A DNA stretch of 64,000 nucleotides, from assembly GCF_001687605.2 (NCBI RefSeq), contig NZ_CP016539.2:2572501-2636500 (forward strand). The letters run 5' to 3'. Positions 17,578 to 58,671 of the stretch are shown one piece after another (position 1 is the first letter of the stretch; each line of letters starts with the position of its first letter). The notes under the pieces were generated by a model, which was not told the DNA's origin, searched no databases, and was given only the letters and a program-made list of their open reading frames with translations. The stretch comes from Planococcus plakortidis (GTDB lineage: Bacteria > Bacillota > Bacilli > Bacillales_A > Planococcaceae). A program made the translations under genes and the position numbers.

Positions 17578-17699
17578 CTTCCGCTGTTCGACTACGCTTC
17601 AGGAGCTGCTTGAGGCTCGCAGGAAGCGAGTCATGCAGCTGACGCGACAGGACGTCGTGTTTTCAGCTGCCCGGGAACGGGGCGGGTGCCCGGCCAAGG
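17578..17699 (+). repeat. intergenic repeat, family C, copy 1
   Basis: About 120 bases closely similar to the reverse complement of 58550-58671; shared pieces include TTCGACTACG, GTCATGCAGCT, GCGACAGGACGTCG and TTTCAGCTGCCCGGG. It fills the gap 17546-17866, where no gene is supported. Confidence 0.75.
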
Positions 17700-22662: not shown

Positions 22663-22685
22663 GCTGCCTGCAATATGCAGGCAGC
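22663..22685 (-). terminator. hairpin with minus-strand T-tract
   Basis: GCTGCCTGCaataTGCAGGCAGC. On the minus strand it is followed by TTTTTT. On the plus strand the T-tract is missing and the family A repeat remnant starts right after the stem, as if an insertion had cut a bidirectional terminator. Confidence 0.6.
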
Positions 22686-22775
22686 GAAGCGGTCGAGGAG
22701 GCTTGGGCGCGAGCCCGCGGAGCCGTGCGATAAGCTTCGGAAAATAAGGCTTTTCATCTTTCCCGAGCCTTATTT
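22686..22775 (+). repeat. family A repeat remnant (3' half) with hairpin
   Basis: CGAAGCGG-CGAGGAGGCTTGGGCGCGAGCC...GATAAGCTTCGGAAAATA matches the right half of the terminator-flanked elements at 26.8 and 35.5 kb. It ends in a hairpin with arms AAATAAGGC/GCCTTATTT (22742-22775), which may terminate the leftward acyltransferase gene. Confidence 0.6.
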
Positions 22776-26766: not shown

Positions 26767-26798
26767 GAAAAGGAGGGCGCTTCGGCGCCCTCCTTTTC
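26767..26798 (+). terminator. pdxK terminator, left copy
   Basis: GGAGGGCGC-TTCG-GCGCCCTCC stem flanked by A and T runs. The 32-bp block is identical to 27152-27183. Confidence 0.9.
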
Positions 26799-26970
26799 CA
26801 GAGTGTTGAAAAAGTCTATCAATCCATTACGAACTAGAATGGAGTCATTTTTCTACATTCAAAAATCAATGATCTTTCTAAGTATTTGGAGAAGCGTTCG
26901 CTCGACTCCTGTGGATCAGCGAGACGACCGAGACCCCGCAAGGAATGAATGAGCGAAGCTTAGCTGAGCG

Positions 26971-27053
26971 CATTCATTTGCGACGCATCTGCCACGCAGA
27001 TGTGGGAGCAAGCGGTTTTTCTGCGATGCTCGAACGCAGTGAGAGTTGAGCAC
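26971..27053 (+). repeat. family D repeat, copy 1 (nested)
   Basis: CATTCATTTGCGACGCATCTGC...GATGTGGGAGCAA-CGG...TGCGATGCTCGAACGCAGTGAGAGTTGAGCA. The same order of pieces is found at 58388-58510. Confidence 0.7.
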
Positions 27054-27151
27054 AAGGGTTTCGAAGCGACTGAGGAGGCTCGGGCGCGAGCCCACGGAAA
27101 GCGAGCGATAAGCTTCGGAAAATACGATTTCCTACCTTTCTCGACAAGCTG

Positions 27152-27183
27152 GAAAAGGAGGGCGCTTCGGCGCCCTCCTTTTC
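27152..27183. terminator. pdxK terminator, right copy
   Basis: Identical to 26767-26798. It also lies just beyond the oppC-like stop codon (27248, minus strand), so it can serve the convergent gene. Confidence 0.9.
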
Positions 27184-34766: not shown

Positions 34767-35516
34767 ATGATTTCAATCAAAAATTTGCATAAGAGCTTCG
34801 GCGAGCTGGAAGTGCTGAAAGGCATCGACCTCGACGTCGAAAAAGGGCAAACGATCGTCGTCATCGGCCCTTCCGGTTCAGGAAAGACCACCTTTCTCCG
34901 CTGCCTCAATATTTTAGAGAAACCAAGTGACGGCACGGTGGAGATCGGCGGGCTGGTGGCTGATTTTTCAAAGCCGATGTCCAAAAAACAAATCATGGCC
35001 TTTCGCAAGCAATCAGCGATGGTGTTCCAGCATTACAACTTGTTCCCCCATATGACGGCACTTGAAAATATTATGGAAGGGCCAGTCACCGTCCAGAAAA
35101 AAGACAAAGCGCAAGCGAAAGAAAAAGCTCTGGCACTGCTTGAGAAAGTCGGACTGTCGGACAAAGCCGATTCATATCCGCACCAGCTATCAGGCGGGCA
35201 ACAGCAGCGCGTCGGCATTGCCCGCGCGCTCGCGCTTGAACCGAAAGTCATGCTGTTCGATGAACCGACTTCCGCACTCGATCCCGAACTTGTCGGAGAA
35301 GTGCTGAAAGTTATGAAAGACTTGGCACAAGAAGGCATGACGATGGTCGTCGTCACCCACGAAATGCGCTTTGCAAAAGGCGCAGCCGACGAAGTATTGT
35401 TCATGGACAGCGGACGGATTGTTGAACGCGGCACACCGGACAATGTGTTCAATCACCCTCAAGAAGAACGCACGAAACGCTTCTTGAATTTAATTCAAGA
35501 CACGGATGCCATTTAA
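34767..35516 (+). CDS. amino-acid ABC transporter ATP-binding protein
   Basis: 249 residues. Walker [10 protein letters not shown] (34-42), signature [15 protein letters not shown], Walker [15 protein letters not shown], switch VTHEMRFA. The PAAT (polar amino acid) subfamily is indicated by [16 protein letters not shown] and the C-terminal [12 protein letters not shown]. It completes the operon; a terminator follows, duplicated around a repeat element. Confidence 0.93.
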
Positions 35517-35522
35517 CCAAAG

Positions 35523-35555
35523 AAAAGCCCCAGTGCATATAGCACTGGGGATTTT
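35523..35555 (+). terminator. amino-acid ABC operon terminator, left copy
   Basis: CCCCAGTGC-atata-GCACTGGGG followed by ATTTT. Nearly identical (one mismatch in 33) to 35793-35825. Confidence 0.9.
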
Positions 35556-35792
35556 CAGAGTGTTGAAGAAGTCTATTGATCCATTACGAATGAGAATGGG
35601 ATCTTTTTTTTCATTCAAAAATACAATGATATTTCTAAGTATTTGGAGAAGCGTTCGCTCGACTCCTGTGGATCAGCGAGACGACCGAGACCCCGCAAGG
35701 CGCAAAGCGACTGAGGAGGCTTGGGCGCGAGCCCACGGAAAGCGAGCGATAAGCTTCTGAAAATACAATTTCTCACCTTTCTCGACAGCCTG

Positions 35793-35825
35793 AAAATCCC
35801 CAGTGCATATAGCACTGGGGATTTT
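35793..35825. terminator. amino-acid ABC operon terminator, right copy
   Basis: Same hairpin as 35523-35555, now adjacent to the 3' end of the leftward yfcC-type gene (35832), for which its plus-strand A-run gives a minus-strand T-tract. Confidence 0.9.
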
Positions 35826-35831
35826 TTGCAT

Positions 35832-37244
35832 TCATGAAACGCCGATAAAAACAGCGATGACGAGTGCGACGAGCGCAATGAACAGCCAGCCGACGACCAG
35901 CTTCCAGACGAATTTCACCCATTTTTCATAAGGGATGCCCGCCACCGCCAAATAACCCATTAACGCAGCGGATGTCGGGATGATGGAATTGGTGATGCCG
36001 TCTCCGTACTGATACGCGAGCACCGCCACTTGGCGCTCGATAGCCAATAGATCCGATAAAGGCGTCATGATCGGCATCGTCGTTGCCGCCTGGCCGCTTC
36101 CGGAAGGGATGAAGAAGTTGATGACCACTTGCGTGAAGAACATGCCGATGACCGTCAAGGCATTCGGCAAGCCGCTGATGACGCTCGACAAGCCATGGAT
36201 CATCGTATCCATGATGACCCCTTGCTCCATGATCACCAGAATCGCGCGGGCGAACCCGACGATCAAGGCACCGAAGACGACCAGCTTCATGCCGTCGACA
36301 AAGGCGTCGAACATCCGGTTGACACCGAGGTTTCCGACGAGCCCCGCCGCAAAGCCGATGATGACGAACGAAGCTGCAAGTTCAGTCAAATACCATCCCC
36401 ATTCGAATACACCGTAGACATTAATGCCAAGGCCAACCGCCAGGAACACGAACACCATGCCGTGGCGCCAGTTGAATGCACCGAGCGCTTCCGCTTGGTC
36501 TTTTGTCGAGGATTTCTGTGCGCGCTTCTCGATTTCATAGATGACGCTTTGTTTCGGGTCTTTCTTCACTTTCGCCGCATAACGCATGACGTACCAGATC
36601 GCGAAGCCGAGGAAGAAGATATACGCCCCGAAGCGGAAGCCGATTCCAGAGAAAATCTGCAACTCGGCGATGCCTTGTGCAATCCCGACAGTGAATGGGT
36701 TAAGCATGCCCCCGATAAAACCGGACGCTGCACCGAGCGAGACCATCGCAGTTCCGGTCATGGCGTCAAAGCCGATCGCCCGTGCCACGGCAATGCCGAT
36801 CGGCACGAAGATGATGACTTCTTCCGCCATGCCGATCGTGGCACCAAGGACCGAAAACAGGGTCATGATGATCGGGATAAGAAACTTTTCACGCTTCTCG
36901 AGCTTGTCGACCACTTTGGCGATTCCGGATTCGATCGCCCCTGTCGCCCGGATGATGCCGAATGCGCCACCGACCAGGAAGATATAGAAGATGATGCTGG
37001 AAGCTTCGGACATGCCCGTCGGAATCGCCTTGAACAATTCAAAGAAGCCGACCGGGCTCTGTTCCACTTCCGCGAAGGAATTATCGATGACGACCGTGCG
37101 CCCATCCACTTCCTCCCGTTCGTATTGCCCCGCAGGAATTAAGTACGAAGCGACCATCGCGGCAATCATAATCAAAAATAGAATCGCGTATGTATGCGGA
37201 ACCTTGCCTCCGCTTTTTTTAAGCTTTTCGGGTTTGGCCGTCAT
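35832..37244 (-). CDS. YfcC family transporter
   Basis: 470 residues with about twelve helices, of the YfcC/ArsB-NhaD-like superfamily (arginine/ornithine or dicarboxylate-type carriers). Family blocks: HTYAILFLIMIAAMVASYLIPAG region at the N-terminus, GMAEEVIIFVPIGIAVARA, and NFFIPSGSGQAATTMPIMTPL. Likely takes up amino acids or short peptides. ATG 37244 has GGAGG upstream and overlaps the epimerase stop codon (ATGA), so the two form a catabolic pair. Confidence 0.87.
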   Translation of the reverse strand: MTAKPEKLKKSGGKVPHTYAILFLIMIAAMVASYLIPAGQYEREEVDGRTVVIDNSFAEVEQSPVGFFELFKAIPTGMSEASSIIFYIFLVGGAFGIIRATGAIESGIAKVVDKLEKREKFLIPIIMTLFSVLGATIGMAEEVIIFVPIGIAVARAIGFDAMTGTAMVSLGAASGFIGGMLNPFTVGIAQGIAELQIFSGIGFRFGAYIFFLGFAIWYVMRYAAKVKKDPKQSVIYEIEKRAQKSSTKDQAEALGAFNWRHGMVFVFLAVGLGINVYGVFEWGWYLTELAASFVIIGFAAGLVGNLGVNRMFDAFVDGMKLVVFGALIVGFARAILVIMEQGVIMDTMIHGLSSVISGLPNALTVIGMFFTQVVINFFIPSGSGQAATTMPIMTPLSDLLAIERQVAVLAYQYGDGITNSIIPTSAALMGYLAVAGIPYEKWVKFVWKLVVGWLFIALVALVIAVFIGVS

Positions 37245-38365
37245 GCATTGTTCCCTCCTACGCTGCAAGATGTGACCGTCAATTTCTTCAGCTTCTCGGC
37301 ATCCACTTCAATGCCAAGCCCTGGCTTGCCGCTTAAAAGCACATGCGGATGCTCATATTTCAAGTCGCCGATTTCTTCGCTGAATAAAAGTGGGCCAGTC
37401 AGTTCCGTACTTTCGATATTGATCCGTGACATCGCCGCGTGATAGCCGGCGCTCGACGCCACGGACGACTCCACCATCGAGCCGATCTGGCACAGCATGC
37501 CCGCCGCTTCTGCGGTTTTCGCCATCTGTACGGCATGGAAGATACCGCCGCATTTCATCAATTTGATGTTGATGACATCAGCCGCATCGAGACGGATGAT
37601 TTCGAGCAAATCTTCCATAGACTGCACGGTCTCATCTGCCATGATCGGTACGGCCGTTTTCTGCCGAACTTCTGCCAAACCGCGGATATCCCCCATGCGG
37701 ATCGGCTGTTCGACCCAGCTGAGACCCGCCGCTTCCAGCTGGCGGATAGCCGCTACCGCTGTCCCGACCGATTTCCACCCCTGGTTGACATCCACCCGGA
37801 TCGGCATTTCGGGACCGACTTCCTGGCGCACAGCCAAAATACGTTCCACGTCCAGTTGTGCATTTCCCGCCCCGACTTTCAATTTCAATGATCCATACCC
37901 AGCTTCAACGGCCTGTCTCGCTTTGTCCGCCATGATTTCAGGCGCTTCGATGCTCAAGACACGCGGGTAGGAAAGATGCTCTTTCGATTGCCCGCCAAGT
38001 AAATTATAGACCGGCTGTCCCGCAGCCTTCCCCATCAAATCATAGCAAGCGATATCGACCGCGGCTTTCGCGGCCGGGTTGCCCGCCAAAATTCCGTTCA
38101 TCTTATGGTGAATCGCTTCAATATCGAATGGGTTCATGCCGATCACGGCCGGCAGGAACAATTCCTTCAACACTTCATAGCTTGCCGTGAAATACTCGCC
38201 TGTCACGTGCTCGTCCGGCACCGCCTCCCCGTAACCGACCAAGCCATTATCCGTTTCCAGTTCGAGGATCAAGGACGGCATATCCGGATAGGTCGCATAG
38301 GAGATGATGAATGGTTCATGCAACGGAAAGCGCACTGCATGCAATCGTGCTTGAGTGATTTTCAT
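37241..38365 (-). CDS. dipeptide epimerase (enolase superfamily)
   Basis: 374 residues. Every catalytic position of the L-Ala-D/L-Glu epimerase group is present: the lysine pair K161-x-K163 (SLKLKVG), metal ligands D192 (DVNQ), E219 (WVEQP) and D244 (ADETV), and the opposite lysine K268 (NIKLMKCGG). Spacing matches YkfB-type enzymes. It likely epimerises murein-derived or other dipeptides; muconate cycloisomerase is the alternative. Divergent from the M20 hydrolase. Confidence 0.88.
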   Translation of the reverse strand: MKITQARLHAVRFPLHEPFIISYATYPDMPSLILELETDNGLVGYGEAVPDEHVTGEYFTASYEVLKELFLPAVIGMNPFDIEAIHHKMNGILAGNPAAKAAVDIACYDLMGKAAGQPVYNLLGGQSKEHLSYPRVLSIEAPEIMADKARQAVEAGYGSLKLKVGAGNAQLDVERILAVRQEVGPEMPIRVDVNQGWKSVGTAVAAIRQLEAAGLSWVEQPIRMGDIRGLAEVRQKTAVPIMADETVQSMEDLLEIIRLDAADVINIKLMKCGGIFHAVQMAKTAEAAGMLCQIGSMVESSVASSAGYHAAMSRINIESTELTGPLLFSEEIGDLKYEHPHVLLSGKPGLGIEVDAEKLKKLTVTSCSVGGNNA

Positions 38366-39755: not shown

Positions 39756-40072
39756 ATTTTAAGCTAACCGGAATATAGTGCGAGTGAGACGGGTGAGCGA
39801 GGTATATTGTTCATTGGTTGCTTCATCTTCAAGCAGCCGCCACCCGCTTTGGGCATACCTCCCGCCCATGGGCGCGGTTCGGCTTTTTATTTCACTGGAT
39901 ATTGCATGTGAGGAAGTGTCGCTGTTAATTGACTTCATTCGGTTGTGGAGAGGCTTAATAGGACTCGATAGATACTAGGATGTTTATTTAATTTGTATTT
40001 TCAAGGCTGTCCAAAACTATTCATGCTAATCTCAGTGACGGATGAATTTCATTTCCACCTACACCTAGAGAT

Positions 40073-40186
40073 GAAGCGTAAAGGGGCGACTCCGGGAGGA
40101 TTAGCGAGACAATTGAGACCCTGCAGGAGCGTTAGCGACGAAGCGGCTCAATGCGAGCCCTCTGGAAAGCGTCCCCTTGAAGCGCA
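40073..40186 (+). repeat. family A core repeat, degenerate copy without flanking duplication
   Basis: GAAGCGTAAAGGGGCGACTCC...TTAGCGAGACAATTGAGACCCTGCAGGAGC...GCGACGAAGCGGCTC...GCGAGCCCTCTGGAAAGCG follows the core of the terminator-flanked elements, but the outer ends and the doubled terminator are absent. It lies in the gap 39756-40225, where I see no gene. Confidence 0.6.
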
Positions 40187-40225
40187 ATCTCCCCCCTACT
40201 CGCCCTTACTCTTCATATGCCAAAA

Positions 40226-52796: not shown

Positions 52797-52824
52797 AAAA
52801 AAACCTCCCGAGGGAGGTTTTTTT
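52797..52824 (-). terminator. flavin reductase terminator, distal copy
   Basis: A7-CCTCCCGAGGGAGG-T7, identical to 53144-53171. Confidence 0.9.
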
Positions 52825-53143
52825 CTTAGCTTGTCAAGAAACCTCGGCAGCTTTTTTGCGTTTCGCTCCAGCCGGACGCTTTCCGCGGGCACGGCCTCAG
52901 CCGCTTCGTCGCTGGCGCTCCTGCAGGGTCTTCGGCTCGCGCTGTTCCCGCAGGAGTCGCCGGCTTCCGCTTCACTGCGATTTTTTGACTACTCAATCCT
53001 ATCGAACTGGTGTATGCTGACACAAAAAAAGAAGTGAGCGAACGCTTCTCCAAATACTTAGATAGATCATTGATTTTTAAATGTCGAAAAGGTGATCCTT
53101 TTTTAATTCATGACTGACTTAATAGACTTCTTTAACATTCCAT

Positions 53144-53171
53144 AAAAAAACCTCCCGAGGGAGGTTTTTTT
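53144..53171 (-). terminator. flavin reductase terminator, proximal copy
   Basis: Same 28-bp block as 52797-52824; its edge overlaps the stop codon (TGA 53173-53171) of the leftward flavin reductase gene. Confidence 0.9.
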
Positions 53172-53740
53172 CAATGGTCGTCGATATCGAGTGTATCTTT
53201 TGACAGGTGGGTGCTCATCTCAGCATATTGTACGAATACGCGAGCTAGTTCGCGCAGGCGGTCATGGACATCCTCATTGATGATGGCGTTCGTATCATCG
53301 AAATGGCTCGTATGCGTATAGACGTAATTCGGCGTCACGAGGCAGCGGAAATAATCAAGAATCGGCTTCAGCTGATTTTCGATGACCAAGTGATGCTGGT
53401 ACGTGCCGCCGTTTGCGACGATCGACACCGGTTTGTAGCGCATCGTCCGCGGATGCAACATGTCGAATGCATTTTTCAAGACGCCAGGAATCGACCCTTG
53501 GAAAATCGGAGAGGCGATGATATAGCCATCCGCCTCTTCAAAACGGCGCACCATTTCCCGCATGCTGTCATTGTATTCCGCATTCGGGCGGCCATCCACG
53601 AACTGATGCTCGTATTCACTCATGCTTAAAATGCTCAATTCCATTTCTGGATTCGCTTGCTCCAGATAGACTTTGACCTGTTCCAATACAGCGCCGGTCT
53701 TGCGCCCAAGTATTGTTCCATCCACTAATAAAATCTTCAT
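53171..53740 (-). CDS. NADPH-dependent FMN reductase family protein
   Basis: 189 residues, flavodoxin-like. FMN-phosphate loop LLVDGTILGRKTG at the start and the second flavin contact SPIFQGSIPGVLKNAFDML around residue 77. May be an azobenzene/quinone-type reductase or an FMN supplier; the substrate is unknown. ATG preceded by GGAGGA. Single gene with its own terminator. Confidence 0.85.
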   Translation of the reverse strand: MKILLVDGTILGRKTGAVLEQVKVYLEQANPEMELSILSMSEYEHQFVDGRPNAEYNDSMREMVRRFEEADGYIIASPIFQGSIPGVLKNAFDMLHPRTMRYKPVSIVANGGTYQHHLVIENQLKPILDYFRCLVTPNYVYTHTSHFDDTNAIINEDVHDRLRELARVFVQYAEMSTHLSKDTLDIDDH

Positions 53741-57705: not shown

Positions 57706-57718
57706 GATGTGAAAGTTT

Positions 57719-58196
57719 TTTTGTGAAATCGTCTCACATTCTATTTTTGCTTCAGCTCGCTAATCGCCGCTCGGCTTTGGGTTGGCCTCTTGCCATAAGC
57801 CAGGAAGAACACCTGTCTCATGGCATCGGCTCACCCTTGGCGCTGGGCGGCTTAGATATTTCGTTTGGTCTAGCCTGTTCAAATAGATCTACTTCATTTA
57901 ATTAGTTGCCGGCTAGTGGGGGAATCGCTTCCCGAGTCTAGTTTCGACTGAGATATTAGAGTTTGTTTGTGGAATCGTTCCTAACCTTTATCTTGCTTCA
58001 GCTCGCTAATCGCCGCCCGGCTTTGGGTTGGCCTCTTGCCATAAGCCAGGAAGAACACCTGTCTCATGGCATCGGCTCACCCTTGGCGCTGGGCGGCTTA
58101 GAAATTTCATTGTGTGCAGCCTGCTCAAATAGATCTACTTCTTTAATCAGTTGCCGGCTAGCGGGGAAATCGCTTCCCTAAAATAGCGTCTGGCAC
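57719..58196 (+). repeat. 246-bp direct tandem duplication
   Basis: Two units (about 57719-57950 and 57965-58196), offset exactly 246 bp over a long identical core: TTCAGCTCGCTAATCGCCGC, GGCCTCTTGCCATAAGCC, GGAAGAACACCTGTCTCATG, GGCATCGGCTCACCC. The edges have diverged. Lies in a 1.06-kb gap (57706-58768) with no supported gene. Related short frames (57723-57905, 57963-58181) lack ribosome sites. Confidence 0.85.
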
Positions 58197-58387
58197 GTTG
58201 GTGCTTCAGCCGAAAATTTTGTTGGTGGATCATAACTAACTAGCCTCTTTAAGAACAAAGATCACTTGAGCTACAAAACATGAAGCATTTCCTCATTTTT
58301 TATCGAGTGGAAAGAAAAATTTTTCATTTCCTCTAAAGCTGGAGACGGAGTGGAAGGGGTGAATGGATGGCGAGGGGAAGCAGAGTC

Positions 58388-58510
58388 CATTCATTTGCGA
58401 CGCATCTGCGTAGCAAATATTTTTTTGCGATGCCCGAACATAGTGAGGGTTGAGCAGATGTGGGAGCAACGGTTCTACTGCGATGTTCGAACGCAGTGAG
58501 AATTGAGCAA
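58388..58510 (+). repeat. family D repeat, copy 2, with internal sub-repeats
   Basis: CATTCATTTGCGACGCATCTGC as at 26971, followed by units of TGCGATG-C-CGAACRYAGTGAG--TTGAGCA at about 58427 and 58480 and a more degenerate third at 58521. Non-coding. Confidence 0.65.
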
Positions 58511-58549
58511 CGCGTATCAAGCGATGCTCAAACACAGAGAAATTTGGCA

Positions 58550-58671
58550 CATTGGCGGGGCACCCGCCCCATCCCCGGGCAGCTGAAAGCGCGACGTCCT
58601 GTCGCATTAGCTGCATGACCCGCATCCAGCGGGCCCCAAGCGCCCCCTGCAACGTAGTCGAAAAGCGGAAG
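58550..58671 (-). repeat. intergenic repeat, family C, copy 2
   Basis: Reverse complement of the 17578-17699 repeat, with roughly three quarters of positions shared, including GCGACAGGACGTCG and TTTCAGCTGCCCGGG. Confidence 0.75.

Follow-up and report, generated by a model that had tools for sequence, protein, structure and literature searches.

A Planococcus MITE family, probably derived from IS1182-type transposons, that duplicates the terminator hairpins at which it inserts

As a rule, the target duplications made by DDE transposons are short and constant in length. Direct repeats as long as about 60 bp are catalogued for the IS1182 family, and long duplications in this family are therefore probably not wholly new. 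Bacterial genomes also harbour MITEs and other repeats between genes, for example BOX and RUP in pneumococci or bcr1 in Bacillus cereus, which are short, multicopy and non-coding, and some of which are thought to be mobilised in trans. To our knowledge, BOX, RUP and bcr1 do not target and duplicate whole terminators. The closest described systems are IS1272 and TnSha1 of staphylococci (PMC5678879, PMC4923244). Like the elements presented here, they belong to the IS1182 family, insert at hairpins that are mostly terminators and that have no sequence consensus, and are found in both orientations at one terminator. Siguier et al. are cited in both of these papers for the targeting of palindromes by some IS1182 members. 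Furi et al. (2016; PMC4923244) described hairpin targeting with deletion and without duplication. Wan et al. (2017; PMC5678879) drew three branches, namely replacement of the stem-loop, duplication of the whole stem-loop and duplication of the loop, with evidence for replacement only; whole-hairpin duplication is the hypothetical pathway b of their Fig. 13. Hairpin targeting by IS1182 elements is thus already known. Our literature search on terminator-targeting MITEs and whole-hairpin duplication returned the IS1272 papers only, and neither whole-terminator duplication at the scale reported here nor the Planococcus MITE family was found in it.

The locus under study, copy 2, lies in a window of 64,000 nucleotides of the Planococcus plakortidis chromosome (NZ_CP016539.2, positions 2,572,501 to 2,636,500), whose numbering we use below. 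Direct reading of its 303 bases (35523-35825) bears out the initial annotation: a 33-bp palindromic terminator is followed by a 237-bp insert and then by a second copy of the terminator, which differs from the first at one position. The left copy (35523-35555), a bidirectional A-stem-loop-stem-T hairpin, reads AAAAGCCCCAGTGCATATAGCACTGGGGATTTT, and the right copy (35793-35825, 33 bp) reads AAAATCCCCAGTGCATATAGCACTGGGGATTTT. The insert (35556-35792, plus strand) has no transposase gene; it begins with CAGAGTGTTGAAGAAGTCTAT, which forms the left terminal repeat (35556-35576, plus strand), and ends with CTTTCTCGACAGCCTG. The reverse complement of the right terminal repeat (35777-35792, minus strand) is CAGGCTGTCGAGAAAG, and a core hairpin module of 131 nt occupies positions 35637-35767 (plus strand). 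The flanking genes are convergent, as had been noted. The upstream one, an amino-acid ABC transporter ATPase judging by its sequence (34767-35516, plus strand), ends at 35516, and the stop of the downstream one, similarly identified as a YfcC-like carrier (35832-37268, minus strand), is at 35832. By sequence and position, the target fits an intrinsic terminator, with a G+C-rich hairpin, a 3' T run and a location at gene ends. A terminator consensus scan of copy 2 detected one of the two terminator copies, on the minus strand, which is no more than expected by chance, and we gave it no weight.

Two related copies are found in the same window. In copy 1 (26767-27183, plus strand), two identical terminators of 32 bp enclose a MITE of 353 bp (26799-27151). 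In copy 3 (52797-53172, minus strand), the MITE is chimeric and the enclosing terminators, again identical to each other, are 29 bp long. The left 145 bp of copy 2 had been described as nearly identical to copy 1; the homology stands, but alignment sets it at 149 nt with 88% identity, together with 92 nt at 91% on the right. The copy 3 element (52826-53143) has its left arm in common with copy 2 and a different right half.

A DNA search of the complete 3.26-Mb chromosome yielded 62 matches, grouped into about 40 loci. All 40 were included in the copy analysis, in which fixed end models recognised both ends of 27 copies. Direct repeats of 28-36 bp, with 0-4 mismatches and at 0-2 bases from the element ends, flank 21 of these 27; decay, unresolved ends or other causes may account for the six copies without a clear duplication. 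The flanking repeat is different at every locus and each one is a hairpin, while the inner element ends are constant, with the terminal inverted repeat CAGrsTGTyGArrAAG at both. In targets rebuilt from the flanks, the duplication is centred on the dyad in 21 of 21 cases, the offset at its start balancing that at its end to within 1 nt. Eleven or more dyad pairs are present in 20 of the 21 target duplications, versus 0.07% of random 32-mers from the window. The elements fall into size classes of about 237, 309, 353 and 424 bp, which differ by optional internal modules. Copy 2 had been proposed to define the basic unit, and this holds in that the smallest class measures 237-238 bp; the ultimate parent, however, would be a full IS1182-family insertion sequence. 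According to simple and rather crude ORF calls, the gene pairs flanking the 40 loci are convergent in 20 cases, tandem in 19 and divergent in one, which is expected of locations at gene ends.

The element is short and multicopy, lacks a transposase gene, and has terminal inverted repeats, a target-site duplication and empty sites in other genomes. Copy 2 is thus a MITE and its terminator copies are the target-site duplication; in Planococcus these elements make up a new family within a known transposon family. The element has no match above the gathering score in Rfam, the plasmid collection contains only weak matches to the core module, and the phage collection contains none. At another locus (L042, around G000:C1:2683780-2684270), a copy-3-like element and a 309-bp MITE stand in series, separated and flanked by copies of one terminator, which looks as though it had been hit twice. 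This is a 22nd copy with a terminator on either side, one of which is internally deleted.

Orthologous sites in related genomes bear directly on the origin of the two terminators. In six relatives (G005, G028, G014, G019, G043 and G035), the gene pair that flanks copy 2 is separated by just one terminator and lacks the insert, and the same is true of the copy 1 site in ten relatives. The initial annotation had regarded terminators older than the insert as evidence against duplication; what predates the insert in the six genomes is one terminator copy only. A single pre-existing terminator confirms the duplication and excludes an element that carries its own terminators. The terminator of copy 2 has received three further insertions in four relatives, which vary in sequence, size or orientation. 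The insert of G015 is forward, with 83.5% identity to copy 2, that of G016 is inverted, with 84% element identity, and G041 and G042 share a larger, inverted insert that is 70% identical, with flanks at about 90%. As these occupied sites differ, the terminator appears to have been hit more than once, and since it is palindromic, either insert orientation is equivalent.

The link to a transposon family comes from G025, a genome of the same genus, in which C-terminal fragments of an IS1182 transposase (NF033551) adjoin the end CAGAGTGTTGAGTAA, the partner end being CAGGCTGTCGAGAAA. IS1182 sets from the genus that were considered earlier as parent candidates did not have the MITE ends in common; those of G025 match. 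The outer 15 of 15 bases on the right of copy 2 and the outer 11 of 11 on the left are identical to the G025 ends, the left one corresponding to the transposase-3' end and the right one to the other end. The core of copy 2, to which a module inside IS1182-family elements is related, is collinear with that of the G025 IS (72% identity over 86 bp), and one end of copy 3 matches the 5' end of that IS at 88% identity across 158 bp. The G025 copies are broken at contig ends, but the junctions that can be read lie at terminators. Four junction pairs have the same terminator, which indicates that the parent IS duplicates terminators too. Because its ends are common with those of an IS bearing an IS1182 transposase, copy 2 can be assigned, by sequence, to the IS1182 family as a probable MITE derivative. 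The initial annotation of a terminator-duplicating insertion is thus supported and additionally connected with known transposons. An intact IS with exact MITE-type ends was not found assembled in any genome examined, nor is the full G025 transposase gene assembled. The P. plakortidis genome has no full-length partner IS; all it retains is an IS1182 remnant from a different subgroup, shortened by deletion. In this remnant (L031; G000:C1:2384876-2385425), a large internal deletion fuses N- and C-terminal parts of the transposase; it belongs to the CTGTCCC-ended subgroup and has a core-like module alongside.

We consider, with a probability of about 0.9, that copy 2 is an internal-deletion MITE of IS1182, mobilised in trans, which duplicated its hairpin target upon insertion. 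It would be a non-autonomous derivative of an IS1182-family insertion sequence, moved by an IS1182-type DDE transposase of which its own genome has no intact copy. The target of the transposase would be a palindrome able to form a hairpin, which in practice means an intrinsic terminator, presumably recognised as an extruded cruciform or a single-strand hairpin. On each of the two strands, a 3' end of the transposon would be joined to the 5' foot of the hairpin, symmetrically about the dyad, and gap repair by the host might then fill in and copy the whole hairpin to both sides. As a result, each convergent gene would retain a terminator and the insert would be insulated. We dropped the simple rule that the duplication equals the palindrome in length, as the correlation between the two is only moderate (r about 0.47 in the P. 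plakortidis genome and 0.44 in the family). Where the palindrome exceeds about 35 bp, the duplication mostly ends within it. Both observations suggest that the position of the joint may be set by the distance from the loop rather than by the base of the stem.

Hairpin duplication extends to full transposons of the bacterial family. Among 28 full IS1182 elements surveyed (L101-L128), 22 have a resolvable duplication; all 22 duplications are palindromic, with lengths of 21-52 bp, and all but one are centred on the dyad. In the few elements without a clear duplication, decay, unresolved ends or other causes may be involved. The CAGACTGTAGACAAA-ended IS (L103-L128) resemble the MITE in their related terminal repeats, their hairpin duplication and, in several cases, a core module, but they differ from it in their size of about 1.6-1.7 kb, the presence of a transposase and several terminal base positions. 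An independent set of named genomes with the exact left end consists of Planococcus only; in these, 13 of 13 sampled exact left ends abut a terminator, and a second terminator copy was recognised at eight. Within the genus, 14 of 46 genomes contain the exact left-end pattern; among the other genomes sampled from the family, one does. The duplicated unit is a complete hairpin, variable in length and with the dyad at its centre, so that the target is apparently defined by structure, not by sequence or fixed spacing. This family-wide behaviour supports a mechanism that had been proposed earlier but not demonstrated.

Other IS1182 subgroups of the genus (L075-L078; L073-L074, L092-L093 and L099; and the derivative L172) have the same transposase family, and several are located at terminators. 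In L076-L078, only about 8 bp are duplicated, at the terminator loop. At the site orthologous to copy 1, the stem-loop seen in G015 is gone from G016, and the L172 element with GGGGCTGTCCC ends is in its place, a replacement as reported for IS1272. Whereas IS1272 deletes or replaces the stem-loop without duplication, the Planococcus MITE duplicates the entire hairpin: at copy 2 it is present twice. The three outcomes in the genus together match the three pathways proposed for IS1272 by Wan et al. (2017). It is tempting to go further and suggest that IS1182 transposases read DNA hairpins by shape, the three outcomes being set solely by where the ends are joined on the extruded hairpin, an idea that we favour by a small measure. 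If true, it would provide natural evidence for structure-dependent transposition and represent a natural route of insertion that is harmless to flanking genes. The terminator would be a safe harbour, as genes are avoided and both neighbours are left with a terminator. With its empty sites, repeated insertions and sister-subgroup outcomes, Planococcus is a convenient test case for the model put forward by Wan et al. (2017), and MITE insertion explains many duplicated terminators in its genomes.

Folding the 131-nt core gives a long hairpin, 10 of whose 33 pairs show compensatory changes on both sides. Covariation is above that of all 500 shuffles and all slid controls, a comparison that corrects only in part for relatedness. 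In the P. plakortidis genome, the core model matches 69 places, many of them without MITE ends; these are possibly an exapted RNA element, or decayed MITEs. Copies of this kind (L241-L280) are often located between tandem genes, with 17 co-oriented and 7 opposite in a post hoc count from crude gene calls. In a further post hoc count of high-scoring end-less copies, the eight that clearly lie in a tandem context are co-oriented without exception (8/8).

Several alternatives to IS1182-type mobilisation with target duplication can be weighed against these data. The presence of a hairpin on both sides of each copy might mean that the hairpins are the outer ends of the element itself, brought in with it. 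Their sequence varies from locus to locus while the inner ends stay constant, and the same hairpin stands alone at orthologous empty sites in relatives, so that this explanation is refuted and its chances are practically nil. The MITE might instead be mobilised by a transposase outside the IS1182 family, its ends resembling those of IS1182 by coincidence. No intact partner with both exact ends has been assembled, only the C-terminal transposase fragments of G025, which leaves some room for this view. Nevertheless, coincidence is very improbable given that 15 and 11 bp at the ends match exactly in the right arrangement, that the core is collinear, that copy 3 reaches 88% identity over 158 bp and that IS1182 elements duplicate hairpins in the same unusual way.

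Selection could also shape the distribution, if the unit were kept because a second terminator for convergent genes, or a regulatory RNA made from the core hairpin, benefits the host, with the insertion bias being secondary. The 20 convergent loci out of 40 and the single divergent one (by the crude ORF calls), the strong covariation of the core and the mostly co-oriented core-only copies between tandem genes are in line with such a role. We regard it as unlikely, since copy 2 is missing from close relatives, inserts at one terminator vary in subtype and orientation, and full IS elements show the same targeting, so that target choice explains the positions without selection. As for the opposite orientations at the copy 2 site (G000 and G015 versus G016, G041 and G042), they might stem from inversion of one ancestral insert, the palindromic flanking terminators being inverted as well as direct repeats. 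Inversion between the terminator copies is a possible explanation for G016, and the element identity of G015 and G016 (about 84%) is similar to flank identity at that distance. For the site as a whole, a single inverted ancestor is doubtful, if less so than a selective origin: the G041/G042 subtype is longer and only 70% identical despite flanks about 90% identical to those of G000, and other similarly close relatives are empty.

The window contains further repeats. An additional core-module homologue is located at 40066-40194 (model match G000:C1:2612566-2612694). At 57706-58144 and 58370-58671, which have an inverted counterpart at 17578-17697, there are tandem 193-nt repeats (88% identity, 246-nt spacing) and other repeat families that have the motif 'GCGATGCTCGAACGCAGTGAGAGTTGAGCA' in common with long MITE forms. 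Finally, a degenerate MITE right half at 22677-22766, directly behind a terminator-like stem (GCTGCCTGCAATATGCAGGCAGC), is probably a decayed copy.
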